Positions 8,647-34,320 of a stretch of DNA of 34,608 bases are shown here, piece after piece. The stretch lies in IMG/VR virus record IMGVR_UViG_3300047551_001398, positions 1-34,608 of that record; one strand, given 5' to 3'. Below the pieces are notes generated by a model. That model did not search any database. It saw only the letters and a program-made list of their open reading frames with translations, and was not told where the DNA came from. Each line of letters starts with the position of its first letter. Position 1 is the stretch's first letter. Origin of the DNA: a virus. A program made the position numbers and the translations under genes.

Positions 8647-8911
8647 GCCAATCCTTTACCCTGAGTTTCAAGCCGCTTTTTTAGGAACCCTGAGAAAGTT
8701 CGGTCAAACTATTCCTGTGGCTGTCTACGATTACGAGAAGTGTCTAGACATTCTTGTAAAGCAGGGTATGGATGTTGTAGACGCTTACGAGTGGCTTGAA
8801 GTAAACACTCTAGGCGGTTATCTTGGAGAAGGCACACCTGTGCTGCTGAATCGTTGCACTATTGAAGAGTTTGAAGAGGAGGCTCAGTTTTATGGGGAAA
8901 CTACTGATTAA
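8612..8911 (+). CDS. Small phage protein of unknown function
   Basis: About 99 residues, starting at ATG 8612 behind an AGGA about nine bases upstream; a longer frame opens at 8582 but lacks a better signal. It overlaps the uvsX 3' end by 35 bases in another frame, and the next gene by 20. The N-terminus is basic (NPRKPLKRK). The rest looks like a compact helical fold with [31 protein letters not shown] have a faint impression of similar conserved hypothetical proteins in other phages but cannot name a family. It separates uvsX from the sugar island. Confidence 0.6.
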
Positions 8912-10179: not shown

Positions 10180-10188
10180 AGGTATATC

Positions 10189-11088: not shown

Positions 11089-11089
11089 G

Positions 11090-12640: not shown

Positions 12641-12646
12641 TACATT

Positions 12647-14670: not shown

Positions 14671-14671
14671 A

Positions 14672-15622: not shown

Positions 15623-15631
15623 AAGATAAAC

Positions 15632-16805: not shown

Positions 16806-17278
16806 GAAAGCAATTTGCAGAACTTCTTTACGATGCTATGGCAGCAAACTCAAAAATTTATCTAATAACTGGAGACTTGGGTTACGGGCTCTGGGATAAA
16901 ATTCGAGATGATTACAAGGACAGATTTTATAATGTTGGATCATCCGAAATGGCTATGATGGGTATGGCTATAGGATTGGCTATGGACGGAAAGATTCCGT
17001 TTGTATACTCTATTAGCCCGTTTGCAATCTACAGACCTTTTGAAATGATAAGAAACTATCTTAGCCACGAAAAAATTTCAGTCAATATTATTGGTGGTGG
17101 CAGAGACAAAGATTATGGATACTTGGGATTCTCGCATTGGGCTGAGGATGATAAAAAAATAATGAGAACTCTAGACAATTTGCGAGTTTTACATCCTGAA
17201 ACTGTAGAAGACATGGTGAAGCAATTTGGTGAAATTTTAATAAATCCTCAACCAACTTATATGAATCTCCGAAAATGA
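16802..17278 (+). CDS. Split transketolase, C-terminal (pyrimidine-binding) subunit
   Basis: 158 residues that match the transketolase pyrimidine domain only; the usual third (C-terminal Rossmann-like) domain is absent. Y-LITGDLGYG near 20-29, YNVGSSEMAMMGMAIGLAM with the cofactor-activating Glu E49, then FVYSISPFAIYRPFEMIRNYL, equivalent to the F-x2-F-x2-R-x-x-EQIR helix of transketolase and DXS. Start overlaps the N-subunit stop by 4 bases (ATGA), so a 1:1 complex is expected. The short form suggests a minimal heterotetramer. Confidence 0.85.
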   Translation: MRKQFAELLYDAMAANSKIYLITGDLGYGLWDKIRDDYKDRFYNVGSSEMAMMGMAIGLAMDGKIPFVYSISPFAIYRPFEMIRNYLSHEKISVNIIGGGRDKDYGYLGFSHWAEDDKKIMRTLDNLRVLHPETVEDMVKQFGEILINPQPTYMNLRK

Positions 17279-18060
17279 AGAAGCCAACTGTTTTGATAAC
17301 TGGAGGTAACGGTTATATTGCCAAAAGTCTTAATCGTGAACTTTGTTCCCGTTATGATGTCACTACTATTTCTAGAGCAAATTTTGATCTTTCTGATACT
17401 GATGCACTAAACAATTGGTTTTCAGGTAAAATTTTTGATGTGGTTATTCATGCTGCTGCAACAGGAGGTAGTCGTCTTAAATCTGATAGCCACCATGTCT
17501 GCGATCAAAATGTGAAAATGTATCGTAATATGCTTGCAAACCGAGATAGGTTTGGAAGGTTAATACACTTTGGTTCTGGTGCAGAATTATTTCATCAGAC
17601 ACAATATAGTCTAAGCAAAACAGAAATAGCAAAGTCTATACAAGACACTGAGCAGTTTTACAACATAAGAATATTTGGTGTGTTTGATGAAAATGAACTT
17701 GAAACTCGTTTCATACGATCAAGCATAACTCGTTATTTGAATCACGAACCAATACAGATACACACCAACAGAGTTATGGATTTTTTCTATATGAAAGATT
17801 TGGTATCTTTGGTTGAATTTTACATCAACGATTTAAATCCAAGCAAAGAAGTTAACTGCTCTTATGAACAAAAATATACTCTGAAAAACATAGCCAAACT
17901 TATAAATTTCATGGGAGATCATACTGTTCCTATCATTGTTCAAAACCCAACAAACTTGGAGTTTTACTGTGGCGAAAGTAATCTGCCAGAAATAGATACC
18001 TATGGTCTTGAAGCCGGTGTTGAATTGACTTACAAAGAACTTTTTAGAATGAGGAAATAA
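17275..18060 (+). CDS. NAD(P)-dependent epimerase/reductase (extended SDR)
   Basis: 261 residues. Nucleotide-binding ITGGNGYIA (8-16), VVIHAAATGG, IHFGSGAELF in the position of the catalytic Ser/Thr strand, YSLSK (Y111, K115) and IRIFGVFDENE. Resembles GDP-fucose-synthase or RmlD-like epimerase/reductases, but the C-terminal half is short and diverged. It probably epimerises or reduces a keto sugar made by the 4,6-dehydratase, 3-dehydrase or transketolase. Coupled by ATGA to the transketolase subunit. AT-rich. Confidence 0.75.
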   Translation: MKKPTVLITGGNGYIAKSLNRELCSRYDVTTISRANFDLSDTDALNNWFSGKIFDVVIHAAATGGSRLKSDSHHVCDQNVKMYRNMLANRDRFGRLIHFGSGAELFHQTQYSLSKTEIAKSIQDTEQFYNIRIFGVFDENELETRFIRSSITRYLNHEPIQIHTNRVMDFFYMKDLVSLVEFYINDLNPSKEVNCSYEQKYTLKNIAKLINFMGDHTVPIIVQNPTNLEFYCGESNLPEIDTYGLEAGVELTYKELFRMRK

Positions 18061-18061
18061 A

Positions 18062-19009
18062 ATGGCAGAGAATGCAGTTATAATCTATATGTCTCGAATG
18101 AGAGACATCCCCCTTCTGTTCAGGAGCATATCTCTCCTGTGCATGAATTTTAGTAAAGCCAAAGAGTATCCGATAGTTGTCTTTCACGATGATATTGATA
18201 AGCCCACCATAGCAAATTTAATGGTGGCTCTACACAGACAATTGGGATATTTTCCAAATATAAAATTTGAACTGTTGACATTTGAGATGCCGTCTTGGGT
18301 TTCTACTGACCCAAACATGTACACTGTGTCTTTGAATGAGGCATGGATGGGATATCGACATATGTGTAGATTCCACTCTGGTGGAATTTATATGGATTCT
18401 AGACTACAGAATTACGATTACTACTGGAGACTTGATTCGGATTCTTATCTGTTCTCTCCAATTAATTACGATCCATTTGAAAAGATGCGTACTAATGGAT
18501 ACGAGTACGCATACATGTGTGATGAAGAAGGCGAAATACCCCGAGTAGTTGAGGGATTATGGGAAGAAACTGAGCGGTTTATGCAGGATAACAATATTCC
18601 CATGACCGAGTACTTCAAGAGTCGATTGGTTGATGGTAAATGGAACTATAATATGTTCTACACCAACTTTGAAATCGCCAAGTTCTCTTTCTTCCGCAGT
18701 AAAGAGTATATGGCGTATTTTAATCAACTAGACAAGACTGGTAATTTTTATTATAAGCGTTGGGGAGATGCCCCAATCCATTGGCTAGGTGTACGAATGC
18801 TAATGGATCCTAACAAGGTTTGGGCTGTTAAGGATATCACCTATCAGCACAATGCTTGGATGCGTAATTTGAGTGCTATTCCCAATAAGGAAATACCACA
18901 AGCCGTTTTGAATATAATAAATGGTGACGAGTACAGAAAGCAAAGATTGCTTTACGGTATGAATCGCTATTTAACTACTGGTGTAGATAAACTTAATTGG
19001 GGAGAATGA
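18062..19009 (+). CDS. GT15-like (Kre2/Mnt1-type) glycosyltransferase, copy 2
   Basis: 315 residues, the stronger of the two GT15 matches. AVIIYMSRMRD, VVFHDDI, GYRHMCRFHSGG, YYWRLDSDSYLF (D125/D127), YTNFEIAKFSFFRSKEYMAYF (E204 at the Kre2 nucleophile position), GNFYYKRWGDAPIHWLGV (W234-G235-D236). The RWGDAP-[IV]-H string is nearly the same as in fungal alpha-1,2-mannosyltransferases. It aligns along its length with the 10189 protein, so the pair arose by duplication and divergence. No signal or membrane anchor. ATG lies 2 bases after the previous stop. Confidence 0.8.
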   Translation: MAENAVIIYMSRMRDIPLLFRSISLLCMNFSKAKEYPIVVFHDDIDKPTIANLMVALHRQLGYFPNIKFELLTFEMPSWVSTDPNMYTVSLNEAWMGYRHMCRFHSGGIYMDSRLQNYDYYWRLDSDSYLFSPINYDPFEKMRTNGYEYAYMCDEEGEIPRVVEGLWEETERFMQDNNIPMTEYFKSRLVDGKWNYNMFYTNFEIAKFSFFRSKEYMAYFNQLDKTGNFYYKRWGDAPIHWLGVRMLMDPNKVWAVKDITYQHNAWMRNLSAIPNKEIPQAVLNIINGDEYRKQRLLYGMNRYLTTGVDKLNWGE

Positions 19010-19010
19010 T

Positions 19011-19613
19011 ATGTATTCACAAGCATTTCAAGATGAATTTGTTGATATCGTTCTGAATGGTCAGACTGAAGGTTACTTTGTTGATGTTGGTGGTGCGTGT
19101 GATGACCACAAAAATGGAAGCAACAGTTTGATGTTTGAGGAGAGAGGATGGAAGGGAGTTATTGTAGATTCAGAAGCACATAGAATGGTTGGAAGATCGT
19201 GTCTTTGTGTATCGAGTTGGATTGGAGATGGTAGTGAAAACACAAAACTGCTTGGTGAAGTTTTAAAGCAAAATCAAGTTCCCACTATAGTTGATTATCT
19301 TTCGATTGATATTGAAGGGCAGGACTACAACGCTGTGAAATCTTTTGTTGAGTCTGGATTTACTTTCAAAGTGGCAACAATTGAACATAACTTATATTCT
19401 CGAAATCCTGGAGTGGATCAGTTAAAGGCTAATATTTTCAACTTGCTTGCTTCCAACGGTTATGTTAGAATAGTAGACAACGCGGGTCATACAGCAACTA
19501 AAAAGAATCTAAACTCAGGTTGGCCTTTTGAAGACTGGTACATAAACCCGAAGTATGTGAACTATCTAGAAACCGTCAAGAAATTAAAGAGTTTACGAGA
19601 AGCATCAGTATGA
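19011..19613 (+). CDS. FkbM-like SAM-dependent methyltransferase
   Basis: 200 residues with the FkbM (Methyltransf_21) pattern: SQAFQDEFV at the start, FVDVGGACD (23-31) as the AdoMet motif, NSLMFEERGWKGVIVD (38-53), then DYLSIDIEGQDYNAV (95-109) and a long C-terminal strand. These enzymes O-methylate sugars in O-antigens and natural products. It is the second methyltransferase of the island and lies between a GT15 copy and the 19610 transferase. Overlaps the next gene by 4 bases (ATGA). Confidence 0.8.
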   Translation: MYSQAFQDEFVDIVLNGQTEGYFVDVGGACDDHKNGSNSLMFEERGWKGVIVDSEAHRMVGRSCLCVSSWIGDGSENTKLLGEVLKQNQVPTIVDYLSIDIEGQDYNAVKSFVESGFTFKVATIEHNLYSRNPGVDQLKANIFNLLASNGYVRIVDNAGHTATKKNLNSGWPFEDWYINPKYVNYLETVKKLKSLREASV

Positions 19614-20518
19614 GAATTGACAAGGTTGTATTTTCTTGTTCCGAGGCTTTCAGTCCTTGGTGGAATATTCAATCCAAAATTTGGAAAACCAAATTTGGAA
19701 TTGAGCCAGTTTGTCTTCTGTTCGGAGATAAGAAGAACTGTCCTGTTTCGGAAGAGTACGGAAATATTGTGGAAATGCAGTACAACCCAACTTTGCCTAA
19801 AATCATACAGATACAGTTTTCAAAATTCTACTACCCAAAAACAGAACCCGATACCACATGGATCATCGGTGACATGGATCAGATACCACTACAGACAGAG
19901 TATTTTTTGGATGGATTAGAATCTGTTTCCGAGGATGCGTATGCTAATCTAAATTATACTTTAACTGCTCAGATGCGTCCAGGAATTCGTTCTGATGGAT
20001 ATCCTGGTATTCCCGCAGACTCGTTTGTTAAACGCGGCGGTGCGGTGAATGGTGGTTATGATCTTCCCGGTCACTATCATGTCGCTAAAGGTAAATTGTT
20101 TGAAGAATTGTTCTTTAAAGACAAGACATTTGAAGAAGTAGTTCGTTATGTTATGGAGTCTAAGCGATACGGTTTTCACACGGAAGAATCTCAAAAAACT
20201 TTAACCAAAGCCATACATGGAGAGTTTTGGGTTGCCGAAGAGAGTTACACATCCGAACAACTGTGGTATGGTTTGCGTCGTGGTATTGTTAAAGAATTCT
20301 ATGGTAAAGAGTATCATATTTGGAATCAAAAGATTGACCGAGTAGGAAGATTGGTAGATTCAAACGGAAAATGGATTCCTCAATGGAATGGCACAAATTA
20401 TATTTACGATGAGGCTAAACTTCGTAACAAAGGATATATGGATTTACATTGCCATCGTCCTTACCATGAGCAAGAAAAGGCTATGCTTAAAATTTTAGAG
20501 ATTGCGAGGATGATATGA
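19610..20518 (+). CDS. Putative glycosyltransferase-like protein, tandem copy A
   Basis: 302 residues, same family as the next gene. Shared blocks: KVVFSCSEAFSPWWNIQSKIW at the N-terminus, TTWIIGDMDQIPLQ around 83-96 with a GDMD metal-like site, LPGHYHVAKGKLFE, AEESYTSEQLWY and an IDR...WNG...DLHCHRPY end. A DxD-like motif, a Trp-rich body and the surroundings point to a GT-A enzyme, but I cannot name a family. Less AT-rich than copy B. Coupled by ATGA on both sides. Confidence 0.6.
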   Translation: MRIDKVVFSCSEAFSPWWNIQSKIWKTKFGIEPVCLLFGDKKNCPVSEEYGNIVEMQYNPTLPKIIQIQFSKFYYPKTEPDTTWIIGDMDQIPLQTEYFLDGLESVSEDAYANLNYTLTAQMRPGIRSDGYPGIPADSFVKRGGAVNGGYDLPGHYHVAKGKLFEELFFKDKTFEEVVRYVMESKRYGFHTEESQKTLTKAIHGEFWVAEESYTSEQLWYGLRRGIVKEFYGKEYHIWNQKIDRVGRLVDSNGKWIPQWNGTNYIYDEAKLRNKGYMDLHCHRPYHEQEKAMLKILEIARMI

Positions 20519-21453
20519 AGATTGATAAAATTGTTTTTTCTGCTACTGAAAAGTATAGTCCATTTTGGAACTATCAATCAAAAGTTTGGAATAAACTTGG
20601 TGTAACTCCTGTGTTATTGCTTTGGGGAGAAGTGAAAAATACTACAGTTGATGACACTTACGGAGAAGTTATAGAAAAAAAATATTCTGATGATGCTATA
20701 AAATCTCTTCAAATGACTTGGAGCAAATTTTATCATACAAGCACAGAACCAGAAACAACTTGGTTGATAGGAGATATTGATTTATTTCCTTTACAAAGTA
20801 ACTATTTTCTGTCAAATCTAAAAGATATTTCTAATGATTCTTATGCACATTTAGCCTGTAGACATCAAACTCGCCACGAACCTCCAGCATATTTTGATGG
20901 AAAGGGCAGCGAATTAACTGGTGGTCAAAACCTTCCTGCGTATTATCATTTGGCTAAGGGAAAAATTTTTGACTCTGTTTATAAATTTACATCCACTAAC
21001 TTTTTAGAGTATGTTAACACAATAGTTTCTCAAAAAGTATATGGAAGGGGCATACCACAAGAGTATATGAGATTAACTCCAAAACAAATCGCAAGCAGCA
21101 TGAACTCTTTAGGAACTAATTTAGGAGCCAAACATTCCATAGAACCATTTTGGTGTGCAGACGAAAGTTATTCTTCAACCATGTTATGGAACGCTATTAT
21201 TAATAAACTTGTAAATTTTACAGGTTTAAATTTTTCTGTGGCAAATCCCAATCCTTATTTGTGGAATAGAATAGACCGATGTAATTGGGATGGCTCTGAT
21301 TATTCGTTTGTTGATCTAAAAAGATTGCGTAATAATCAATATATTGATTTTCATTCTGTAGGCCCATCTGAGTCTATGGATAATATAGTTGCTTCTTTTG
21401 ATAAAATTGAACATCCTTTAAAGCAAATACTGAGTGTTGCAGGAATGCTATGA
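20515..21453 (+). CDS. Putative glycosyltransferase-like protein, tandem copy B
   Basis: 312 residues, diverged paralogue of the gene before it (KIVFSATEKYSPFWNYQSKVW; TTWLIGDIDLFPLQ; LPAYYHLAKGKIF; ADESYSSTMLW; WNRIDR). It has a ~25-residue insert near the middle (YMRLTPKQIASSMNSLG). Base composition is much more AT-rich than copy A, so the two may have been acquired from different phage backgrounds rather than duplicated in place recently. Likely transfers a different sugar or uses a different acceptor. ATGA coupling at both ends. Confidence 0.6.
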   Translation: MKIDKIVFSATEKYSPFWNYQSKVWNKLGVTPVLLLWGEVKNTTVDDTYGEVIEKKYSDDAIKSLQMTWSKFYHTSTEPETTWLIGDIDLFPLQSNYFLSNLKDISNDSYAHLACRHQTRHEPPAYFDGKGSELTGGQNLPAYYHLAKGKIFDSVYKFTSTNFLEYVNTIVSQKVYGRGIPQEYMRLTPKQIASSMNSLGTNLGAKHSIEPFWCADESYSSTMLWNAIINKLVNFTGLNFSVANPNPYLWNRIDRCNWDGSDYSFVDLKRLRNNQYIDFHSVGPSESMDNIVASFDKIEHPLKQILSVAGML

Positions 21454-22856
21454 ACTTAGTTTGTATTTCTGGCAGTTCAGGAGTAGGTAAAACTACCGTA
21501 TCAAAACTGATACAATCTGTGCTTGGAACCAAAGAGTGTTTATGTCTAAGCGGAGATGATCTTCACCGGTGGGAAAGAAACGATCCCATGTGGAAAATCA
21601 AAACTCACCTAGATCCTCAGTCAAATGATCTTGAGATGGGGTATGCTCATTTGTTGGAATTATCCAACGGCAACTCTATAATCCGAAAGATTTACAATCA
21701 CGATACCGGTAAGTTTGATTTTGCCGCAACCATTTCTCCAAAACCTTGGGTTGTATACGAGGGGCTTCATGCTTTGTACCATAGACCAACAGCAGACATG
21801 GCAACTCTTAAGATTTTCGTAGACACAGATGAAACCCTAAAAACCGAGTGGAAAATTAAAAGAGACACTAAAAAAAGAGGATATACCGAGAAGCAAGTCA
21901 TAGAGATGATGAAGCGTAGAAAGATTGATGAGGATCGCTTCGTAACAGTTCAAAAGAAAGAAGCAGATATCGTTATAAAGTTTACTCGCAACCGAGATGC
22001 TTCTGTTTCTTTAGACTATGTTTCTGTTAACGGTAGAGGAGTGGAATTGATGGAAACCGTCAAAGAGTTCTACGATTCCATGATGGACTTTATGAGCGTC
22101 TGTAAATGGCTATCTCTTGATCCGGCATTAGTTCAAGGTAGAGGGGGCAATGTTTCCGTGAAGTCTGATAGTGGCTTATTGATTAAAGCATCTGGTGCTA
22201 AAATGGCTGATGTAAATCTACATCACGGGTTTTGTGTGTGTGACTTTAATAAATCTATACCAAACGAGTTTCAAAATGAGGACGAGTATACCAATTGGGT
22301 TCAGAGTTCAAACAAAACCGGTGAACATAGACCATCTATGGAAACTGGATTTCATGCTTTGCTAACAGACCGAGTGGTGATTCATACACACCCAATTCAT
22401 TTGAACGCAATTTTGTGCAGTAAAGAAGGCAAGTCCTTGATTGCCAATTTGTTTTCTGATATGACCTACGAGTATGTGGAGTATGTTAAGCCTGGCTCTT
22501 GTTTGATGTCTAAAATTTCCACAGATAAGAGTGTGTTCTTTCTTGAAAATCACGGACTTATTGTTACGGCTAAGGATGCACAAGAAGCGTTTGAAACCAC
22601 GGAGAGAATCAATAGTAGATGCAAAAGGTGGTTAAGTAATCATGTTGAATCGTTTGTTGATACTGAAGAAAGTGAAACAGTAAACTCTCCACTTTTTCCT
22701 GATGCTGCTGTATTTCCAAACGAAATGCAGTCAACCAACAACTACATACTAGGTCTGTTGACAGGAGCATGTTTAACACCTAAATTTTTAAGCATGAGTG
22801 AGATTGAATCTCTGAACGCCATGCCTTCGGAGAAATACAGAAAGGCTTTAGTATGA
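21450..22856 (+). CDS. Fusion of a uridine-kinase-like P-loop kinase with a class II aldolase
   Basis: 468 residues. Residues 1-~190: P-loop kinase of the uridine kinase/phosphoribulokinase type, with Walker A GSSGVGKTT (8-16), LSGDDLHRW, YEGLHALYH and a lid-like RDTKKRGY. Residues ~205-440: class II aldolase/adducin fold, with QGRGGNVSVK (phosphate site, ~229-238), SGAKM, PSMETGFHALL (catalytic Glu E298), IHTHPIH (metal His H312/H314) and ENHGLIV (third metal His, ~H368). Active-site residues look intact in both halves. A phosphorylated hydroxy-sugar made by the kinase could be the aldolase substrate, or the reverse. ATGA couples it to both neighbours, the next being a nucleotidyltransferase. 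Confidence 0.85.
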   Translation: MNLVCISGSSGVGKTTVSKLIQSVLGTKECLCLSGDDLHRWERNDPMWKIKTHLDPQSNDLEMGYAHLLELSNGNSIIRKIYNHDTGKFDFAATISPKPWVVYEGLHALYHRPTADMATLKIFVDTDETLKTEWKIKRDTKKRGYTEKQVIEMMKRRKIDEDRFVTVQKKEADIVIKFTRNRDASVSLDYVSVNGRGVELMETVKEFYDSMMDFMSVCKWLSLDPALVQGRGGNVSVKSDSGLLIKASGAKMADVNLHHGFCVCDFNKSIPNEFQNEDEYTNWVQSSNKTGEHRPSMETGFHALLTDRVVIHTHPIHLNAILCSKEGKSLIANLFSDMTYEYVEYVKPGSCLMSKISTDKSVFFLENHGLIVTAKDAQEAFETTERINSRCKRWLSNHVESFVDTEESETVNSPLFPDAAVFPNEMQSTNNYILGLLTGACLTPKFLSMSEIESLNAMPSEKYRKALV

Positions 22857-23677
22857 AAATTATTGTGCCTATGGCAGGAACAGGTAATCGTTTTGTTGAG
22901 AAGGGATACAAAGATCCCAAGCCTCTGATTCGGGTGAACGGGAAAAGAATCATTGAATACATTCTAGAGATGTTTGATCCAAATGATGAGATTGTATTCA
23001 TCTGCAATGATACTCATTTAGCCACAACTGATATGCGAGATGTGCTTCTGAGTTTGAAGCCAAACGCTACGATTGTATCCATGCCACAGCACAAGTTGGG
23101 CCCTGTATGGACTGTTAAAGCGGTATACGAACATATTAAAGACGATGAAGAAGTTATTGTTTCATACTGTGATAATCCACACCTTTGGAGCATGGAAGAT
23201 TTTAGAGATCATGTTAAACGATATCAAATGGACGGGTGTATTCTTACTCACACAGGATTTCACCCGCACACCTTAGCAAACACCAAAATGGCATTTGTGA
23301 AAGATGTCGCAGGAACACCATACATTACCGAAATCAAAGAAAAGGCTTGCTATACTGATAATCCGATGAATGAGCATGCTTCTACTGGCATGTATTACTT
23401 CAAGCGTGGCTCGGATATCAAGAAGTATTTTGATCTTGCGATGGAGCGAGGTGTACAGTATAATGGCGAGTTCTATGTTACATTGGTTTACAACTTACTG
23501 ATTCAAGACGGGCTAAAGGTTGGGTATTACGATACTCCGTTTGTTACCGTGTTTGGAACTCCTGAAGAAGTGGAGAACTTTGAGGCTTGGGCAACCATAA
23601 CCCGAGGCAAGCAAGTAAAGTCTGTAGATGATCTGATTAACTGCTATCTGTATTGGGACTCGTATCACAATGACTAA
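22853..23677 (+). CDS. Sugar-1-phosphate nucleotidyltransferase
   Basis: 274 residues of the NTP_transferase fold. N-terminal IIVPMAGTGNRFVEKGYKDPKPLIRVNGK carries the G-x-G-x-R nucleotide-binding signature and the PKPLI motif. Further on, VSYCDNPHLW is the metal-binding D region, then EIKEKACYTDNPMNEHASTGMYYFK and NGEFYVTLVYNLL as in glucose-1-P thymidylyl/cytidylyltransferase-like enzymes. It would activate a sugar phosphate to NDP-sugar for the island's dehydratases and transferases. The sugar and base are not evident. Overlaps the HAD gene by 8 bases. Confidence 0.85.
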   Translation: MKIIVPMAGTGNRFVEKGYKDPKPLIRVNGKRIIEYILEMFDPNDEIVFICNDTHLATTDMRDVLLSLKPNATIVSMPQHKLGPVWTVKAVYEHIKDDEEVIVSYCDNPHLWSMEDFRDHVKRYQMDGCILTHTGFHPHTLANTKMAFVKDVAGTPYITEIKEKACYTDNPMNEHASTGMYYFKRGSDIKKYFDLAMERGVQYNGEFYVTLVYNLLIQDGLKVGYYDTPFVTVFGTPEEVENFEAWATITRGKQVKSVDDLINCYLYWDSYHND

Positions 23678-23972
23678 GATTATATTTGTTGATATTGATG
23701 AAACCATTTGTATTACTCCTGATCATCCTCGGGAGTATAAGAAGGCAAAGCCTATTCCTGAAAACATAGAAAAGATCAATCGTTTATACGATGCGGGAAA
23801 CACCATCATCTATTGGACGGCTAGAGGCAGTAGAAGTGGTATAGATTGGTATGATCTAACCAAGCAACAGTTGGAAGATTGGGGAGCAAAGCACCATGAT
23901 CTTCGCTGTGACAAGCCGTATTATGATATGTTCGTTGAAGATCGTAGTATTAGAATCGAGGAGTTATCGTGA
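23670..23972 (+). CDS. HAD-family phosphatase (small)
   Basis: 100 residues. HAD motif I FVDIDETI with D8 nucleophile and D10; motif II YWTARG (Thr); motif III Lys region around KPYYDMFVEDR with the acidic D residues of motif IV. No cap domain, so a C0-type HAD likely acting on a sugar phosphate or accessible group. Small HAD phosphatases next to nucleotidyltransferases are common in capsule loci. Coupled by GTGA to the next gene. Confidence 0.85.
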   Translation: MTKIIFVDIDETICITPDHPREYKKAKPIPENIEKINRLYDAGNTIIYWTARGSRSGIDWYDLTKQQLEDWGAKHHDLRCDKPYYDMFVEDRSIRIEELS

Positions 23973-24439
23973 TTTACATTTCTCACCGAGGCAATCTTGA
24001 CGGAGTTAAGCCAGAACTAGAAAACACACCAGAGTATATCGACTCTGCTCTAGAGCAAGCGTTTGATGTGGAAATAGATTTGCGTATGCGAGATGGTGTT
24101 CCGCACCTTGGTCACGATTACGCTCAGTATCCTGTAAGCCTTCAATGGTTGCTTGATCGTAAAGAACAGTTGTGGATTCATGTTAAAGAATTTAAAGCGT
24201 TGGCTTGGCTACACCAAACTCCAAACTCACATGAAATTTTTAGATTCTTTTGCCACGAGGGAGATCGCTATACTTTGGTAAGCCGAGGTTGGATATGGTC
24301 TCACGATTTAACAAATCCGATGATGAAAAATTGTGTAATTCCTTTGCTAACTAAAGAGTCTGTAGCCGCACACACTTATAACGGATTTGGAGCAGTTTGT
24401 TCGGATTTTATATACGATTGTCAGAAAAAGTTTGCTTGA
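23969..24439 (+). CDS. Glycerophosphodiester phosphodiesterase-like protein
   Basis: 156 residues, shorter than typical GDPDs (~240). The front half of the TIM barrel is clear: ISHRGNLDG with H6/R7, ENTPEYIDSAL, FDVEIDLRMRDG (E35 and D37 metal ligands) and VPHLGHD (catalytic His H49). The back half is abbreviated. It may hydrolyse or transfer a glycerophosphate-like group in the sugar pathway; similar small GDPD-like proteins sit next to nucleotidyltransferase/HAD pairs in glycan loci. GTG start at 23969. Its TGA stop is part of the -35 box of the gene 41 promoter. Confidence 0.7.
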   Translation: MIYISHRGNLDGVKPELENTPEYIDSALEQAFDVEIDLRMRDGVPHLGHDYAQYPVSLQWLLDRKEQLWIHVKEFKALAWLHQTPNSHEIFRFFCHEGDRYTLVSRGWIWSHDLTNPMMKNCVIPLLTKESVAAHTYNGFGAVCSDFIYDCQKKFA

Positions 24440-26189: not shown

Positions 26190-26263
26190 GGGAGTGGGGG
26201 GTCTTTGGTTGGCCCAGATCGGTTTATACCCGATTGGAACAGGTTCGAATCCTGACGCTCCTA
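26190..26263 (+). tRNA. Probable tRNA-Ile (anticodon UAU, reads AUA)
   Basis: A cloverleaf can be folded. The acceptor GGGAGTG pairs with CGCTCCT (two G-U pairs) with A as discriminator. The anticodon stem ATCGG/CCGAT holds the loop TTTATAC, whose middle TAT is the anticodon. The T-arm CAGG-TTCGAAT-CCTG is canonical. Weak points: positions 8-9 are GG instead of the usual U8, the D-arm is irregular, and one T-stem pair is A-A. CCA is not encoded. AUA codons are frequent in the AT-rich genes here, so an AUA-reading tRNA makes sense. Bacteria usually read AUA with a lysidine-modified CAU tRNA, so a UAU tRNA is notable. Confidence 0.6.
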
Positions 26264-26270
26264 CTAAATA
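26264..26270 (+). promoter_or_regulatory. Late-promoter-like CTAAATA after the tRNA
   Basis: CTAAATA directly follows the tRNA 3' end and lies 21 bases before the next ATG, with SD AAAGGAG in between. Resembles the T4 late box. Confidence 0.35.
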
Positions 26271-27158: not shown

Positions 27159-27166
27159 TATAAATA
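27159..27166 (+). promoter_or_regulatory. Perfect T4-type late promoter box TATAAATA
   Basis: TATAAATA immediately follows the stop TAG of the HNH gene (27156-27158) and lies 6 bases before the ATG at 27173. In T4 this exact box is recognised by gp55/gp33-modified polymerase. A start about 7 bases downstream would fall at the ATG. It heads the block of probably packaged and structural proteins. Confidence 0.6.
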
Positions 27167-27172
27167 TGGAGT

Positions 27173-28393
27173 ATGCTATCATTTTCTTGCTATAATACTC
27201 CTAATTCAATCAACGAAGCCAACAAAGGTGGTCATATCAGCCACCTTGAAGACGGCATGTTTGAAGAAGGTTATGCAGGACTTCAAGCATCCATTAAAAT
27301 TTTAAAAGATGTTGCTAACAGCGTTTCCGCATCAGGTAAAGCGGTTCCGTCTGTTAATGTGTCTACCAAGTGGGATGGTGCTCCGGCTTTAATTGTAGGA
27401 ACTCACCCTGAAACCAAGAAGTTCTTTGTAGCCACCAAGTCTTTCTTCTCAAAAACTTCAAAGGTTAACTATACTGAAGCAGATATCCGTGCTAACCATG
27501 AAGGTGGTGTGGTGGATAAACTGATTCTTGCTCTGAAATATTTGAAACCTTTGAACATTCGTGGTATTGCTTGGGGCGACTTGCTGTTCACTCAAGCCGA
27601 GAAAAAAGCAGAAACTATTGACGGCAAAAGTTACATTACCTTCCGTCCTAATACCATTACATACGCGGTTCCTGCTAATAGTCCAACAGGAATGGAAGTA
27701 GCCGCTGCTAAGTTTGGTATCGTGTTCCACACAAAGTGGAGCGGAAGCGGAGATCCGAAAGAGCGTTCTTCATGGTCGCCTGGTGTTCCTCCTATGGGAA
27801 CTTCAACAGGAGTTTGGATTGTAGACGCTAAAGTTCCTACACTTCCAAAGAACATGTTGTTGCAGTCCGCTGAAGAAAAACAATTTGTAGACTTGGTTGC
27901 CAAGATTGAAGCAAACGCTGGTTCAATGAAATCTGCACTTGTATCTTTCTTGAAGAGTGAAGCCGCTGAGTATGTTGCACAGTATGTAAACGCAACTGTA
28001 AAAGCAGGCTTGTCAAACAATACAGCCAACGGTCTTGCTGTGTTTATTCAATCTCGTATTGCTGCGGAAGTGGAAGCCTTAAAGACTGATGCCAAGAAAA
28101 AAGAAAAGCAGGAAAAGGTTGCAAGAATTACCAAGTATCTTAAAGCATATGCATCACAGATTGACTTGCTGTTTGGTTTGCATGCCATGATTGCTAAAGC
28201 CAAAGCAATGATTATATCTAAACTTTCTCTTACCCAAACTGTTTCAACTTTCATTGGTGACAAAGACGGATATCGTCCAACCGCACCTGAAGGTTTCGTA
28301 GCAGTTTGTGGTAAGACATGTCGTATCGTGAAACTTGTTGACCGCAACGAGTTCTCACGCAACAACTTTAATCTAGCAAAGGAATGGAAGTGA
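27173..28393 (+). CDS. DUF6267-like protein with KWDG ligase/nucleotidyltransferase-type motif
   Basis: 406 residues. Resembles a family common in T4-like cyanophages, in which an HLED motif (24-27) precedes TKWDGAPA. K66-x-D68-G69 fits motif I (KxDG, adenylated Lys) of the ligase/capping nucleotidyltransferase superfamily. RGIAWGDLLF (130-139), ITYAVP (162-167), GIVFHTKW (182-189) and WIVDAKVP (215-222) are where motifs III, IIIa, IV and V would lie. Activity is inferred. The N-terminus MLSFSCYNTPNSINE|A has an I-x-E site like T4 prohead-protease cleavage sites. The start is set by the ATG after the late box; GGAG lies only one base away, so initiation may be leaderless. Confidence 0.65.
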   Translation: MLSFSCYNTPNSINEANKGGHISHLEDGMFEEGYAGLQASIKILKDVANSVSASGKAVPSVNVSTKWDGAPALIVGTHPETKKFFVATKSFFSKTSKVNYTEADIRANHEGGVVDKLILALKYLKPLNIRGIAWGDLLFTQAEKKAETIDGKSYITFRPNTITYAVPANSPTGMEVAAAKFGIVFHTKWSGSGDPKERSSWSPGVPPMGTSTGVWIVDAKVPTLPKNMLLQSAEEKQFVDLVAKIEANAGSMKSALVSFLKSEAAEYVAQYVNATVKAGLSNNTANGLAVFIQSRIAAEVEALKTDAKKKEKQEKVARITKYLKAYASQIDLLFGLHAMIAKAKAMIISKLSLTQTVSTFIGDKDGYRPTAPEGFVAVCGKTCRIVKLVDRNEFSRNNFNLAKEWK

Positions 28394-31383
28394 AGAAACT
28401 AACACAAGTCATTACCGAAGCACCCAAGAAAGAAAAGTCAATTGTTATTGGTGTTGGTAGATTTAACCCACCAACAACAGGACACGAAGTTCTTGTAAAT
28501 AAAGTAATGACAGAAGCACAAAAGATCAGTGCTGAGTTTTGCATTTACGCTTCATATTCTCAAGACCCAAAGAAAAACCCGCTAGATGTAAAAACCAAAC
28601 TTGATCTGCTCAAAAAGTTTTTTCCAAAGATGAAGTTTCAGGCTATGCCTAAGCCTTTCCCAAACAAGGATGGAAAAACTGTTGCAGGCCCATATGCTAT
28701 TGCACAAAAATTGAGTGATGCAGGATATACACGAGTTTACATTGTTACAGGTGCAGATCATATGGCAGAATATAACAAAATTAAGCAATACATTGACACA
28801 GATCCAAAGAGCACAGAAGGATATAAGTTCTCGGATTTCAAAGTTATCAATGCTGGTGCTCGTGATCCTGATGCTGAAGGAGTTCAAGGCATGTCGGCTT
28901 CCAAGATGCGTAAAGCAGTATTTGATGGCGACTTTGATGCGTTCCGTGAAGGCGTTCCTGCTCATGTTAAGGACGCAGATGCAAAGAAAATGTTCATGGC
29001 AGTTAAGAAAGGTATGCAACTAAAAGAAGAGTGGTTGTGGGAAGAAAAGGCTTCTGATGTAACCATTCTTTGCTTAACCTCGGCTGAAGGCAGCACAGAC
29101 GGTTCTTCCATAGAAAAAATGGAAAAGAGTTGCAAAAAGAAGGGTATTGCATTTCATGTGATAAAGATGAAATACGCTCACATCAATTCAATGGAAGCAA
29201 GTGGTGAAAAGATTACCATTGAGATGAATGAAGGTGAAGATAAACCAAAGAAATTAACAATAAAGCCACAGAATACTCTGTGCTTTGTTCGTGGCGGTGT
29301 TATGAACTCAGAACTAGGAGTTGGTCTTGCCACAGTATTACAAAATAACGGTGTGTTCATGGTTAACGAGAAGGGTGCTATGGAAATTTGTGCAAACAAA
29401 TTGCAAACTGCTCTAGCCCTTCAGAAGTATAACCTGCCACACCCAAGAACTGCTTTTGTTTCAAACGAAGAATCGGTTGAAACGGCTATGAAGGCTATTG
29501 GTGATAAATATCCTGTTGTAGTTAAGACTGTAACAGGAGCAGAAGGTATCGGCGTTTCAATCATTGAAAGCGAGAAGTCTTTGCGTTCTGTTCTTCAGTC
29601 TTTATGGAAATTTGGTGCAGAAGTTATCTTACAAGAGTTCTTGCCAGGATTTAAAAATGATGTTCGCTCAATTGTTCTAAATGGCAAGATATTTGCCTGT
29701 GCAAAGCGTGACAAGGCTAAAGGAGATTTTAGAACTAATATTGCTAGAGGTTCCTCAGGGGGAGCATTCAAGTTAAGTCCAGAAGAGATTGAACTTGTAG
29801 AAAAAGTTGCTTTAGTTAGCAAATGTTATTATGTTGGTGTTGACCATGTTGTGGTTAACGGCAAGCCTTATGTTATTGAGATGAACGCTTCGCCAGGTAG
29901 TGGCAACATGTATACTCTTTACGAAAACGGTAAGCCAACCGAAGAAGTGGACGGTCAAGGATTGATTGATGCTTTAATTGAACATGTAAGCAACAAGTCT
30001 AATTGGAAACTTTTTGCCAGCGTTGCTGTTACTGAAAATATAATGGTAGATGGAGTCGAATATACGGCAAAAATTGATACTGGTAATAGCGGATACAATT
30101 CAATTGACGCAAACGATATCAAGATAAATGAAAAAAATCACACAGTATCTTTTAAACTAAATGGAAAATCTTTAAAGAAAAATATTGTAAGTAGAATAAA
30201 GATAAGAAGAGGTGGCACAGAAGAAAGAGAAATCCGCCCAATAGTTTTAATGGATGTTGAATTTGCAGGTAGAGAATACAAAAATGTTAAATTCTCTTTA
30301 GCAAACAGAGAACATATGGATTATAAAGTTTTGATTGGTTTGAGATTTTTAAGACAAACAGGAATGCAAGTTAATCCTAAAGAGATGGTTGCGTCCACAC
30401 CAAAAACACAAAAAGAGGAGTTGAATATGAACGAGGGAGCAGCACAAGCAAGCCCAAAAGATAAAGAAACAGGCTTGCCTAAAAAGTATGTTTCAGGATT
30501 AAGCCGTGCAGATGCCAAGGCTAGAGTACAACAGTTTGCTGCTCGCAAGGCTCGTTCAGATTCAGATCCAAAAGCATGGGAAAAACTTCCAGGTGATCCT
30601 AAGAAAACTGCTAGACGATCTAAGTATTCAATAGCATTTGCTAAAAAGTTTGGAACAAAATCTGAAGCAGTTGAAATACAAGAAATTCTTGAACAGGCAG
30701 TAGTATTGGACAATCAACAGAGCATTTCTTCTAGAATTGAAAAAGCAAGAGAACTTCAAAGTGGGGTTTTAACTGTAGAAGAAAAAGATGCTTGGGATGT
30801 ATACATTCAAGAGCAAAAGAAAATGATGTATGCAGAACACGCTCCCAAATCTCCTGCAACACTTGACGAAGAATTTGAGTGGATTCTTTACGAGCATACC
30901 GATGAAATCAGTTTTTCACGAAAGATTTTTAAAGAAGTTTTAGAGGTTGGAACAAATAAAATTCGTAAAACCTATGCTAAAGACACTCCAGGTCAAAATG
31001 ATATTGCTGAAGAAATGGACGACGAAGAAAAAAATAGCATCTACAAAGAATGGTCTAAACTTGTAAACATGGGGGCCAAGGAACTTCAAAACTTTATTGA
31101 CTCGGAAGACGGCAAAGAAGCAGGGTTGTCTAGAAAAGAAGCAGGCAAAGCAGGAACGGGCGGAGGTAAGATAACTTCAGGTAGAGACTCAGCCCGCGCT
31201 ATAGTTAGAATGCTTGGCAAGAAAAAAGATGATTGGCAGGCAGGAGATTGGAAATGGGCAAACAAACAAATTTCATTTATCAGTAGAATGAAGGGAGCCA
31301 AAGGCCCACTTCGTGATGATAAAGGTAGACCCACAAGAAAATTATTAGCCCTAAAAATTTGGGGTCATAATCCGGAGAAATAA
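28390..31383 (+). CDS. Multidomain fusion: NMNAT-like nucleotidyltransferase, RimK-like ATP-grasp ligase, retropepsin-like protease, C-terminal phage domains
   Basis: About 997 residues from GTG 28390 (GTGA overlap, AAAGGA 6 bases away; the ATG at 28384 abuts that SD). Domain 1 (~17-200): cytidylyltransferase fold with GRFNPPTTGH and GMSASKMRKAV. Domain 2 (~220-535): RimK-type ATP-grasp with VVVKTVTGAEGIGVSI (ATP Lys) and VIEMNASPGSG; RimK adds glutamate to ribosomal S6. Domain 3 (~540-660): retropepsin-like RimB/PF05618-type protease, AKIDTGNSGYNSI (catalytic DTG) and YKVLIGLRFL. Domain 4 (~680-770): GLPKKYVSGLSRADAK, DUF6321-like. Domain 5 (~890-997): GRDSARAIVRML...GRPTRKLLALKIWGHNP. N-terminus MKKLTQVITE|A resembles a capsid-targeting peptide. 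Confidence 0.8.
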   Translation: MKKLTQVITEAPKKEKSIVIGVGRFNPPTTGHEVLVNKVMTEAQKISAEFCIYASYSQDPKKNPLDVKTKLDLLKKFFPKMKFQAMPKPFPNKDGKTVAGPYAIAQKLSDAGYTRVYIVTGADHMAEYNKIKQYIDTDPKSTEGYKFSDFKVINAGARDPDAEGVQGMSASKMRKAVFDGDFDAFREGVPAHVKDADAKKMFMAVKKGMQLKEEWLWEEKASDVTILCLTSAEGSTDGSSIEKMEKSCKKKGIAFHVIKMKYAHINSMEASGEKITIEMNEGEDKPKKLTIKPQNTLCFVRGGVMNSELGVGLATVLQNNGVFMVNEKGAMEICANKLQTALALQKYNLPHPRTAFVSNEESVETAMKAIGDKYPVVVKTVTGAEGIGVSIIESEKSLRSVLQSLWKFGAEVILQEFLPGFKNDVRSIVLNGKIFACAKRDKAKGDFRTNIARGSSGGAFKLSPEEIELVEKVALVSKCYYVGVDHVVVNGKPYVIEMNASPGSGNMYTLYENGKPTEEVDGQGLIDALIEHVSNKSNWKLFASVAVTENIMVDGVEYTAKIDTGNSGYNSIDANDIKINEKNHTVSFKLNGKSLKKNIVSRIKIRRGGTEEREIRPIVLMDVEFAGREYKNVKFSLANREHMDYKVLIGLRFLRQTGMQVNPKEMVASTPKTQKEELNMNEGAAQASPKDKETGLPKKYVSGLSRADAKARVQQFAARKARSDSDPKAWEKLPGDPKKTARRSKYSIAFAKKFGTKSEAVEIQEILEQAVVLDNQQSISSRIEKARELQSGVLTVEEKDAWDVYIQEQKKMMYAEHAPKSPATLDEEFEWILYEHTDEISFSRKIFKEVLEVGTNKIRKTYAKDTPGQNDIAEEMDDEEKNSIYKEWSKLVNMGAKELQNFIDSEDGKEAGLSRKEAGKAGTGGGKITSGRDSARAIVRMLGKKKDDWQAGDWKWANKQISFISRMKGAKGPLRDDKGRPTRKLLALKIWGHNPEK
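30414..30429 (+). promoter_or_regulatory. Strong internal ribosome-binding site and in-frame ATG within the fusion gene
   Basis: AGAGGAG (30414-30420), six bases, then ATG (30427), in frame with the fusion. Translation here would give a separate ~318-residue protein starting MNEGAAQASPKDK that holds only the two C-terminal domains. It lies exactly at the boundary after the retropepsin domain, so it may be the original start of a gene later fused, or a working second start. Confidence 0.55.
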
Positions 31384-31384
31384 A

Positions 31385-31645
31385 ATGAAAAATTTTAAAG
31401 ATTTAAAAAAAGAATTAGAATTAACAGAAACTATTAAAGCAGTTAAAAATAAAGCCGCTAAGTCTGGCATATCGTATGCAATTTTAAAGAAAGTTTACGA
31501 CCGAGGTATGGCTGCTTGGAAAGGCGGCCATAGACCCGGAGCAACTCCACAGCAATGGGCATTGGCTAGAGTCAACTCATTTTTAACAGGCGGTAAAACA
31601 CGAACAACTGCTGATGCGGATCTTTGGAAGAAAGCAAAAGGATAA
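31385..31645 (+). CDS. Small conserved phage protein (DUF5824-like)
   Basis: 86 residues. The core AKSGISYAILKKVYDRGMAAWKGGHRPGATPQQWALARVNSFLTGG is a motif I have seen in many phage and virus proteins of unknown function. The tail TTADADLWKKAKG repeats the last residues of the lysozyme downstream (GDLWKKANG). N-terminus MKNFKDLKKELELTE|T contains an L-x-E site at residue 15, like T4 capsid-targeting leaders. AT-rich. ATG one base after the previous stop. May be a packaged DNA-associated protein (inference). Confidence 0.65.
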   Translation: MKNFKDLKKELELTETIKAVKNKAAKSGISYAILKKVYDRGMAAWKGGHRPGATPQQWALARVNSFLTGGKTRTTADADLWKKAKG

Positions 31646-31650
31646 TTTAT

Positions 31651-32277
31651 TTGAAAACTTTTATACAACATTGCAAAGAATTGGAATTGCAGGAAGTTAA
31701 AAGAACCCCTGCTTTACTTTCTGCTCTTTTGGCTACAAGTATGGCATTAGGATCTCCTGGTGCAAATTCTCAAATTCAAAAACCTTTAGATCAATCAACT
31801 CAAGTGTGGAAAACCACATCCGAATGGAAAGTTATAATTTCTAAATTTGAGGGATTTCGTACAGAAGCCTACTGGGACGCTACAGGTAAAGTTTGGACTA
31901 TAGGTAAAGGATCAACTACTCATCCAGATGGTCGTCCTGTTAGAAAAGGAGATAGAATAACAAAACAGCAAGCAGATCAATACTTGGAACATTATGTAAA
32001 TACAAAAATAATTCCTAAATTAAAAATGATACCAAATTGGAACAATATGAATGCTAATCAACAAAGTGCTTTAATTTCATTTGCATATAATGTAGGGCCT
32101 AGTTTTTATGGCAGAAGTGGATTTGAATCTATAACCACAGCATTGAGTTCTCCTTCTCGTTGGAATCAAGTTCCTAGTGCTTTGGCAAAATATAATACCT
32201 CTAAAGGAAAGGTTTTATCTGGTTTGACTAAAAGAAGAAAGGCCGAAGGAGATCTTTGGAAAAAAGCCAACGGATAA
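31651..32277 (+). CDS. GH24 (T4-type) lysozyme with unusual N-terminal leader
   Basis: About 208 residues. TTG start at 31651 behind AAAAGGA; a frame from 31624 would lie inside the previous gene. Muramidase core: ISKFEGFRTEAYWD with E67 and D76 spaced as T4 lysozyme E11/D20, TIGKGSTTH, ITKQQADQYLEHYV, NANQQSALISFAYNVG, and the end LSGLTKRRKAEGDLW. The leader is odd: residues 1-15 (MKTFIQHCKELELQE) look like a T4 capsid-targeting peptide with an L-x-E cut site. Next comes VKRTPALLSALLATSMALG...ANS, which resembles a signal peptide. It could be a packaged or virion lysozyme for entry rather than the lysis endolysin. AT-rich. Confidence 0.85.
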   Translation: MKTFIQHCKELELQEVKRTPALLSALLATSMALGSPGANSQIQKPLDQSTQVWKTTSEWKVIISKFEGFRTEAYWDATGKVWTIGKGSTTHPDGRPVRKGDRITKQQADQYLEHYVNTKIIPKLKMIPNWNNMNANQQSALISFAYNVGPSFYGRSGFESITTALSSPSRWNQVPSALAKYNTSKGKVLSGLTKRRKAEGDLWKKANG

Positions 32278-32283
32278 ATTTAA

Positions 32284-32290
32284 CTAAATA
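32284..32290 (+). promoter_or_regulatory. Late-promoter-like CTAAATA
   Basis: Lies in the 52-base gap after the lysozyme, 39 bases before the next ATG; SD AAAGGA follows. One base short of the T4 box TATAAATA. Confidence 0.4.
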
Positions 32291-32329
32291 CATCTAAGCG
32301 ACAATATTTTTAAAGGAACGGAAGTAAAA

Positions 32330-32875
32330 ATGCACAACTCACCAATCAGCAAGGAATTTTACAATAACATCACGGATGTTTTAACTGGAAAAACTACAAA
32401 GAAAGTAGAATTACCAGAGGCTTTGGTAGAAGCAGCCAAGGCTGCTAAAGCAGAACTCGCAACTCTCACCGAGGGAGTTATGGTTGCTGAAACCAAGCGT
32501 AACATTCTTCGCAAGCACCTTAAAGAAGGTGTAGCCAAGTGTGGTTGCCAACTAACACCAGAAATGGTTGTTCGGTTTGATGAAGTTGTTGCTGAGGCTG
32601 ATGTTAAGATGCCTACTCAAAAGGCTGCTCTTGCTACTCCCGCTGAAGTAAAGAGTAAGACTGCTCCAAAAGGAGGCTCATCTGCCGCTGAAGGTAGCAA
32701 GTTGGCTACTCCTGCTAAAGCCGCTTCTGCAATTCAAACCGCAGGTATGAAAGCCTCCGTTAAGAAGGAAGAAAAACAAACTTCAGAAATTGAAATGGGT
32801 CTTCGTGAGTTTTTGACTCAACTTTCTGAAGAAGAAATCTCAACCCTTCGTAACATCATCAACGAAACCCGCTAA
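32330..32875 (+). CDS. Ala/Lys-rich protein, possible virion or core/scaffold component
   Basis: 181 residues, no family recognised. N-terminal ~95 residues are helical and charged with a conserved-looking CGCQLTPEMVVRFDEVV. Residues ~96-150 are a low-complexity Ala/Lys/Ser/Thr linker (KAALATPAEVKSKTAPKGG). The C-terminal helix FLTQLSEEEISTLRNIIN may be a docking element. Such composition is typical of prohead core or internal proteins. It ends with TAA inside the next late-type box. Preceded by a CTAAATA motif and a good SD (AAAGGAACGGAAG region). Confidence 0.55.
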   Translation: MHNSPISKEFYNNITDVLTGKTTKKVELPEALVEAAKAAKAELATLTEGVMVAETKRNILRKHLKEGVAKCGCQLTPEMVVRFDEVVAEADVKMPTQKAALATPAEVKSKTAPKGGSSAAEGSKLATPAKAASAIQTAGMKASVKKEEKQTSEIEMGLREFLTQLSEEEISTLRNIINETR

Positions 32876-32878
32876 ATA
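32872..32878 (+). promoter_or_regulatory. Late-promoter-like CTAAATA over a stop codon
   Basis: CTAAATA includes the TAA stop (32873-32875) of the preceding gene and lies 22 bases before the ATG at 32901, with SD AAGGAG between. Supports separate late expression of the 32901 structural gene. Confidence 0.45.
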
Positions 32879-32900
32879 GAAACGACAAGGAGAGCAAGAA

Positions 32901-33767
32901 ATGGGATTTTGGAACAACAACGATAGAGAAGAATCAAAACCACTATGGCTTAACGATAGTCAAAGGCGTTTCTGTGTTCGCACAAACGCGGGTTGGGAAA
33001 TTCCTGTAGCAAATGCTATTTCCAATTTGGCAAGTCAGTTTGAGGGCCCCAAGGCTCTTGGCTTAACCGCAAACTATCCTCAAATGGAATTGATTGTTTG
33101 CATGCCAAACGATCCAAGCGTAACAGGAACTACATCAAGCGTGTTTGCCAACAGAGTAAGTATCACAGGTGGTTTCACCTCTGACGCTTTGTTGGTGGGA
33201 ACTGTAAACTACGCTCCATACATCACAACACCATTCAATGGTGACGGTGCAACTTCAGGAGGTATGCTTGGTCTAGGATTGAGCCATTCTGCTACAGCAC
33301 ACTTTGGTTTGAATGAATACGGAGTTTCTAGTTTGTTCTGGGGCGTAACGGGAAGAGGATTAACCTCATCTGTTCCTGCATATACAAACGATTCGGGAAC
33401 AAGTTTCCCACTAGGCAACACAGGATACATCAAGGTTAAGGCTAACGATGTAAACTTCACACAAACTTTGACCCTATCTGTAACAGGTCAAATGACTGGT
33501 GGAGGCCCTGTTGCTCACTCAGATCTAAAGAGAATAGTGTTTGTTACCGGCAGCGGACTGCTTGTAAACACAGGAACCACAGGAGTTCCAACAGCCGTTT
33601 ACGAAGCATTCTTCGGCCCAACATCAACATACAACAACGACATTGGAGTTATTGTTCTACCCGCAGGTCTAACCACTGGTGCATACGGTTTAACCGCTCA
33701 TGCAAACGATGGAACAACCGCAACAAGTGCAACAGGATCGTCGTCCTTTAGAGTAACAGTTCGCTAA
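32901..33767 (+). CDS. Putative virion structural protein (head decoration or fibre-like)
   Basis: 288 residues, rich in Gly, Ser, Thr, Asn and beta-strands, low in Lys and Cys, as in capsid decoration or fibre proteins. The N-terminus GFWNNNDREESKPLWLNDSQRRFCVRTNAGWEIP resembles small T4-like marine phage structural proteins with an N-terminal aromatic/basic WxxxxxKRxCxRTxxGWE pattern (from memory). The C-terminal ~90 residues look like one Ig-like domain (LKRIVFVTGSGLLVNTGTTGVP... SSSFRVTVR). Its late-type promoter box and SD AAGGAG point to high late expression. Confidence 0.6.
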   Translation: MGFWNNNDREESKPLWLNDSQRRFCVRTNAGWEIPVANAISNLASQFEGPKALGLTANYPQMELIVCMPNDPSVTGTTSSVFANRVSITGGFTSDALLVGTVNYAPYITTPFNGDGATSGGMLGLGLSHSATAHFGLNEYGVSSLFWGVTGRGLTSSVPAYTNDSGTSFPLGNTGYIKVKANDVNFTQTLTLSVTGQMTGGGPVAHSDLKRIVFVTGSGLLVNTGTTGVPTAVYEAFFGPTSTYNNDIGVIVLPAGLTTGAYGLTAHANDGTTATSATGSSSFRVTVR

Positions 33768-33780
33768 CTAGGAGTTTATA

Positions 33781-34320
33781 ATGCGTTTTAAAGATTTAAG
33801 AAGTTCTCTTAAAGAACAACATGGAGTTGAGATGGGGCACATGCATCCATCAATAGGCCCATTTAATCCAGATGGTGCTGTAGATACTCCGGAAACTAAC
33901 ATTTCATCTTTAACAAATTCTTCTTTAACTAAATTAAATGCATTTTTAGGTTCTGCTTTTTCTAGATCTTACATTAGCACAGGAAACATTTTAACTCATA
34001 TTAAAATTAAACTCGCTGAAGTTGGGTTACATTTTGAGAGCAGTACATCTCCAGCAAAAGTTGGTAACGGATCAGAAGAAACCATGAGAAGCGACAACCA
34101 AGTTAGAGGTCCAATTAGAGATTTGGATGTTGGTTCATATCAGTTTCCTCTATCATATCTTGGCGGATCATACGGCAGATATCCAACAGATCCAGGATAC
34201 GAACCATATCATAGCGATGGAATTACAAATAAAACAGGAGTTAGTTTACTTTTAAATGTAGAAGTTTCTTTAAACGATAATGGAACTTTTTCAGTCAGAC
34301 CCACTATAAGTGAAGCATGA
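33781..34320 (+). CDS. Protein of unknown function with capsid-targeting-like N-terminus
   Basis: 179 residues. N-terminus MRFKDLRSSLKE|Q resembles T4-type capsid-targeting leaders with an L-K-E site at residue 12. Then a His/Gly/Pro turn (MGHMHPSIGPFNPDGAVDTPE), a helix with SSLTKLNAFLGSAFSRSYIS, and a beta-rich C-terminal half with YQFPLSYLGGSYGRYPTDPGY. Family not recognised. SD TAGGAG is 6-7 bases before the ATG. Followed by a strong terminator, so it closes the late block. Likely internal or structural virion protein (inference). Confidence 0.6.
   Translation: MRFKDLRSSLKEQHGVEMGHMHPSIGPFNPDGAVDTPETNISSLTNSSLTKLNAFLGSAFSRSYISTGNILTHIKIKLAEVGLHFESSTSPAKVGNGSEETMRSDNQVRGPIRDLDVGSYQFPLSYLGGSYGRYPTDPGYEPYHSDGITNKTGVSLLLNVEVSLNDNGTFSVRPTISEA

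Follow-up and report, generated by a model that had tools for sequence, protein, structure and literature searches.

Predicted capsid-targeting leaders on a block of large enzymes in a T4-like phage fragment

The gene block and its N-terminal leaders

The window analysed here (the whole stretch of DNA, positions 1 to 34,608 of IMG/VR record IMGVR_UViG_3300047551_001398) was a 34.6 kb piece of a T4-like phage genome and included genes for a gp43-type polymerase, uvsX and a gp41-type helicase. A block of seven genes (27173-34320) was flanked by the helicase gene on one side and by a phrog_407 gene on the other, and five of the seven encoded proteins opened with a leader of 10-15 residues terminating in [LI]-x-E. 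An earlier sequence-only reading had proposed that these similar leaders, with their early (L/I)-x-E, target enzymes to the phage head in the manner of the T4 internal proteins (IPs); all five leaders were found to be present, two of them from non-ATG starts. The open reading frames (ORFs) of the block and their features are listed below, with an arrow at each predicted cut.

27159..27166, plus strand: T4-type late promoter box TATAAATA, 14 nt before ORF1
27173..28393, plus strand: ORF1, DUF6267, nucleotidyltransferase/ligase-like (Pfam PF19782, E 5.8e-93)
27173..27217, plus strand: leader of ORF1, MLSFSCYNTPNSINE↓A
28390..31383, plus strand: ORF2, NMNAT-like, RimK ATP-grasp, RimB-like retropepsin (DTG) and DUF3140/DUF6321 domains
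28390..28419, plus strand: leader of ORF2, MKKLTQVITE↓A, from a GTG start
31385..31645, plus strand: ORF3, standalone DUF5824 (PF19141, E 2.1e-19)
31385..31429, plus strand: leader of ORF3, MKNFKDLKKELELTE↓T
31651..32277, plus strand: ORF4, GH24 lysozyme (PF00959, E 3.7e-27; solved GH24 lysozymes, E 8e-19)
31651..31695, plus strand: leader of ORF4, MKTFIQHCKELELQE↓V, from a TTG start
31696..31773, plus strand: signal-peptide-like stretch VKRTPALLSALLATSMALGSPGANSQ, directly after the predicted cut of ORF4
32330..32875, plus strand: ORF5, no family match, no leader
32901..33767, plus strand: ORF6, no leader
33781..34320, plus strand: ORF7, no family match, leader-bearing
33781..33816, plus strand: leader of ORF7, MRFKDLRSSLKE↓Q

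The leaders of ORF2 and of the lysozyme, ORF4, begin at non-ATG codons and had been misplaced in the mechanical ORF list. The GTG at 28390 has AAGGA 6 nt upstream; in a distant homologue of ORF2 (L190) the GTG is kept, with no ATG at that place, and the protein reads MKRFTEIVAE↓A. The TTG at 31651 has AAGGA 8 nt upstream, and relatives carry ATG at the equivalent place. Both starts were accepted because the ribosome-binding-site spacing and the relatives agreed.

Leader lengths of 10, 12 and 15 residues were found across the five ORFs, within the range of 10-19 residues of the T4-type capsid-targeting sequence (CTS). The leaders agreed with the T4 CTS in being hydrophobic or aromatic at positions 4 and 7 (F/Y, L/V, F/L and F/H in ORFs 1 to 4, respectively), with L or I at P3 and E at P1; in ORF7 the first pair was shifted by one position (F3/L6), and V was found at P3 in some leaders of relatives (the G005 lysozyme and L001). 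The ORF1 leader was longer, with a layout like that of T4 IPI (MKTFKEFTSTTTPVSTITE↓A), and read MLNFSSFSTPESITE↓A and MLSFSTHATPNFIKE↓S in relatives. In the AlphaFold2 model of ORF1, residues 1-19 fell below a pLDDT of 50, and the leader was disordered.

Leader conservation and comparison with chance

Capsid-targeting sequences are known from the internal proteins of T-even phages. For T4 IPIII, ten CTS residues are enough, with positions 4 and 7 used for targeting and positions 8 and 10 for processing (PMC9026906). DUF6267 homologues with 28-43% identity retained F4, [FY]7, [LI]8 and E10, and positions 3, 5, 6 and 9 drifted. Among 17 distinct DUF6267 leaders with E10, which were chosen by homology of the protein body, position 4 was F in 15, position 7 was F or Y in all 17 and position 8 was L or I in all 17; the companion list from other families was partly found by pattern and so is partly circular. 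The ORF3 and ORF7 leaders kept P3 (L/I) and P1 (E) constant within the clade, with changes at P2 and P1', and distant standalone DUF5824 copies read I-x-E↓A. Homologues of ORF7 began MKNFKNHIAE↓E in Melnitz and MKSFKDFQNVNE↓K in HTVC008M, and the RimK homologue of Mosig, which is a separate protein, started MQVQPFKNYLEE↓A. Lack of conservation among homologues had been named at the outset as an outcome that would count against the proposal; instead, the leaders of ORFs 1, 2, 3 and 7 were conserved, and conservation at the experimentally mapped IPIII positions supported their identification as T4 IP-like leaders cut after (L/I)-x-E.

Similar N-termini could also arise by chance, as MK plus hydrophobic residues and a common L-x-E, with no shared function. 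L-x-E is indeed frequent, the broad leader pattern was composed after the window leaders had been viewed and was fitted to them, and with this pattern S-PM2, Mosig and T4 were near background. In the window all five leader genes among the 43 called ORFs sat in the seven-gene block (hypergeometric p = 2e-5), and shuffles of the N-termini gave 0.4 leader matches on average. Near relatives provided the fair test: the broad pattern matched 18 genes in G005, 12 in G001 and 12 in G003, compared to about 1 in N-terminus shuffles, and these holdout genomes lay above every shuffle (for G005 the shuffle mean was 1.2 with a maximum of 5). Two to three matches per genome looked chance-like (e.g. MIYISHRGN...), and most belonged to new families, such as those starting MKSFKTHLTE, MKDFSDYLQE and MKYFESYITE. 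An earlier pattern was found in G005 at 10 of 163 true starts versus 6 of 1443 internal start codons (p = 4e-7). The strict IPIII-type pattern retrieved exactly IPII and IPIII among 249 ORFs of T4, one ORF (GC190, see below) among 203 of S-SM1, and 8 of 160 in G005 compared to 0.17 in shuffles. Furthermore, the conserved positions were the experimentally mapped ones, and the GC190 leaders agreed in ten of ten cases. Chance similarity was consequently regarded as highly improbable.

Prohead protease, virion evidence and the proposed packaging

The search for a gp21-like protease, which had been suggested as a check, was successful in the clade and negative in the window fragment. Contig L194 carried portal, S77 (gp21-type) protease, scaffold and major capsid genes, of which the portal, scaffold and capsid were named from position and appearance; its tail tube was 97% identical to that of G005, a sequence that ends among tail-tube/tail genes, adjoining the region of gp23, gp22 and gp21 in relatives. 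One further genome, G022 (145 kb), contained the block, gave no S77 match and had many frameshifts; it was discounted as evidence in either direction.

The perfect late box said to precede the block was confirmed as TATAAATA at 27159-27166. The form [TC]ATAAATA was kept at -14 of ORF1 in ten of ten inspected clade members, with varying flanking bases, and TATAAATA also occurred 45 bp upstream of the major capsid gene in L194. The box was not enriched in the window (1 copy compared to 1.84 expected), so only its positional conservation was relied on. As a separate observation, no Shine-Dalgarno sequence followed [TC]ATAAATA in L003-L006 (compare window 27159-27172), and by sequence the late transcript of these loci may be nearly leaderless.

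GC190 is a gene of the cyanophage core set, with an NMNAT-like domain homologous to that of ORF2. The cytidyltransferase T4-GC190 was detected by mass spectrometry in purified S-SM1 virions (Sullivan et al. 2010, PMC3037559). Its N-terminus in S-SM1 is MKKFSAFLNE↓A, and the leader M[KR]x[FY]xxF[LIF]xE↓A was present in 10/10 cyanophage sequences inspected (S-SM1 and nine others, Syn9 to RB11-B). The NMNAT of S-PM2 follows DUF6267 in a fusion protein that has no leader, and GC190 was among the proteins undetected in S-PM2 virions (PMC3037559). The leaders of the ORF2 family, together with the S-SM1 virion detection, constituted the strongest evidence for a CTS system, and the gp21-type protease of the clade further supported the claim of a cleaved targeting leader. 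No paper was found in the literature that calls the GC190 leader a CTS; apart from a T4 review, the open papers contained nothing tying a CTS to cyanophages, and DUF6267 was named in none of them. A CTS on GC190 would offer a simple reason for the cytidyltransferase in cyanophage particles.

The explanation favoured, with a probability of about 0.83, is that the block encodes T4-type CTS internal head proteins that are large enzymes: DUF6267, the NMNAT/RimK/retropepsin fusion, DUF5824 and probably the lysozyme. Packaging and gp21-type cleavage are well supported at the level of sequence. The leader would act as a CTS that binds the prohead core, chiefly via hydrophobic side chains near positions 4 and 7; the gp21-type prohead protease of the phage would remove it by cleavage behind [LI]-x-E; and the enzymes, now mature, would remain with the DNA and, by analogy with T4, would be injected alongside it into the next host. 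Judging from the protein families, DUF6267 might then serve as a nucleotidyltransferase or ligase for nucleic acid, and NAD or another nucleotide might be the substrate of the NMNAT-like domain; RimK with the retropepsin might add and trim glutamate tags on a host protein, and the lysozyme might act on the cell wall. The novelty lies in the cargo and its scale, the targeting mechanism being known already.

Alternatively, the proteins may be packaged and cut but serve in head assembly or stay in the empty capsid, undelivered. Among the gp21-processed T4 proteins, gp21 itself, gp22, gp67 and gp68 function in assembly, and delivery in the present case is argued from T4; however, catalytic cargo such as RimK, retropepsin, NMNAT-like and lysozyme domains is hard to place in a prohead, and T4 CTS fusions do reach the cell (PMC9026906). 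This alternative was judged unlikely.

Several observations weighed against packaging as internal head proteins. The window gave no match to PF03420 or an S77 protease, the 34.6 kb fragment falling short of the head genes, and in the closest clade no single contig was found with both the block and the protease. The strict IPIII-type 10-mer matched none of the five window leaders, which are longer or looser, like that of T4 IPI, and P1' was sometimes unusual (V, Q, L, I). Leaders were absent from DUF6267 of S-PM2 and of L030-L035, from the NMNAT of HTVC008M, which has no LxE, and from the RimK-like protein of YerA41. For this particular phage, packaging and cutting are predicted by analogy, with the virion support coming from the GC190 homologue, and the contrast between S-PM2 and S-SM1 virions is one pair measured by different laboratories. 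Leaderless homologues exist, so the leader is not required everywhere and packaging by leader is not universal. YerA41 is a phage with a particle proteome, and its RimK-like protein is annotated as structural despite lacking a leader; other routes into particles may exist.

Cargo enzymes, related systems and neighbouring genes

The putative KWDG ligase-like protein of the sequence-only reading, ORF1, belongs to DUF6267, in which K66, D68, G69, E373, G374 and K387 (motif I KxDG, motif IV EG and the motif V lysine) were invariant in 20 homologues; a fold search of the PDB with ORF1 gave no match at E ≤ 0.001, with RNA-ligase chains only at E of about 1.6, and the ligase-like label derives from the invariant motifs only. 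The NMNAT/RimK/protease fusion was confirmed in ORF2, whose RimK domain matched PF08443 (E 2.3e-29) and solved glutamate ligases (E 2.5e-25). The small DUF protein proved to be ORF3, a DUF5824 protein whose PF19141 match starts at the predicted P1' residue. Among 52 non-redundant DUF5824 sequences (loci L269-L348), 46 had an [LIVM]-x-E ending 12 or 13 residues ahead of the SG anchor, compared to ≤6% at other positions, and occurred both after short leaders and within long fusions; this conserved motif may be an internal prohead-protease site or else a part of the domain.

Of the proposed cargo, the lysozyme is the least certain member because a signal-peptide-like stretch follows the leader. 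ORF4 could be an ordinary secreted endolysin; its N-terminus would then be the extended n-region of a signal peptide and have no relation to the leaders of the other ORFs. Each of the three lysozyme versions in the clade (window, G005 and G003) indeed has, behind the leader, a moderately hydrophobic stretch containing sites that resemble those of signal peptidase. On the other hand, MKTFIQ[HY]...E resembles other clade leaders (MKSFKTHLTE), the hydrophobic stretch starts directly after the predicted cut, and the lysozyme gene is missing from G001, which retains the rest of the block. The endolysin interpretation, which is limited to ORF4 and compatible with CTS packaging for the other four leaders, was considered possible but doubtful. 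Outside the clade, most lysozyme homologues lack the N-terminal extension and start at the catalytic core.

A more speculative and rather improbable extension is that the prohead protease acts as a cargo switch. The lysozyme leader would mask a Sec signal, and the prohead cut would leave that signal N-terminal ([VI]K, hydrophobic stretch, A-x-A-like end); the fused multi-enzyme cargo of relatives would be a packaged polyprotein cut at conserved L-x-E sites on domain borders (before DUF5824). If so, the lysozyme, once ejected, could be exported from the cytoplasm of the new host. The clade conservation of the internal L-x-E sites of ORF2 in the window was unclear, so the polyprotein claim was not extended to the window.

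At its N-terminus, ORF6 was related to an 'S-layer' family whose genes occupy the corresponding position in HTVC008M, Melnitz and S-SM1 (blastp E 5e-6 over the first 32 residues). The structure model of ORF7 was of low confidence and too poor for a fold search.

T4 IPI counters a host restriction enzyme. IPI, IPII and IPIII share with the present block the short leader, the key residues at 4, 7, P3 and P1, the (L/I)-x-E cut and, in the clade, a gp21-type protease; the T4 proteins are small, whereas multi-domain enzymes are found here, with about 12-18 tagged proteins in near relatives. Cyanophage T4-GC190 has the homologous NMNAT-like domain, an IPIII-type leader and a locus after gp41 near T4-GC198, but is not fused to RimK and retropepsin. 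The bacterial RimK/RimB system of S6 glutamylation likewise combines an ATP-grasp ligase with a PF05618 retropepsin-like protease, which in the phage are fused into one protein with NMNAT-like and DUF domains. The ejection proteins known from SPN3US, phiKZ and their relatives are similar in that many enzymes are packaged and ejected and a related protease cuts after x-x-E, but their propeptides are mostly far longer, with an A-x-E or S-x-E motif, in another phage group (PMC5694885).

On the favoured explanation, the CTS would mark large enzymes of T4-like phages that infect uncultured bacteria, in addition to GC190, and head-packaged proteins could be read from genome sequence by a leader scan, yielding candidate early-acting phage effectors, mostly in families without an assigned function. 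Many more tagged proteins, several in tandem (MKDYWQLRE..., MKSFKTHLTE...), were seen in G005 57563-98102 and G001 60204-77332; almost all the other tagged proteins of these two genomes had no family assignment in Pfam and PHROG scans. In L194, a Zeta_toxin-like kinase at 16654-17529 begins MITFKKYLEE and is a candidate tagged protein.

The gene order gp41, DUF6267, NMNAT-like and then T4-GC198/phrog_407 was common to the window, S-PM2, S-SM1, HTVC008M and Melnitz. Between uvsX and the helicase, at about 8862-24439 of the window, a cluster of glycosyltransferase, aminotransferase, transketolase-like and sugar-nucleotide genes was seen (translations judged by eye), and a tRNA-Ile with anticodon TAT lies at 26190-26264, slightly upstream of the block.
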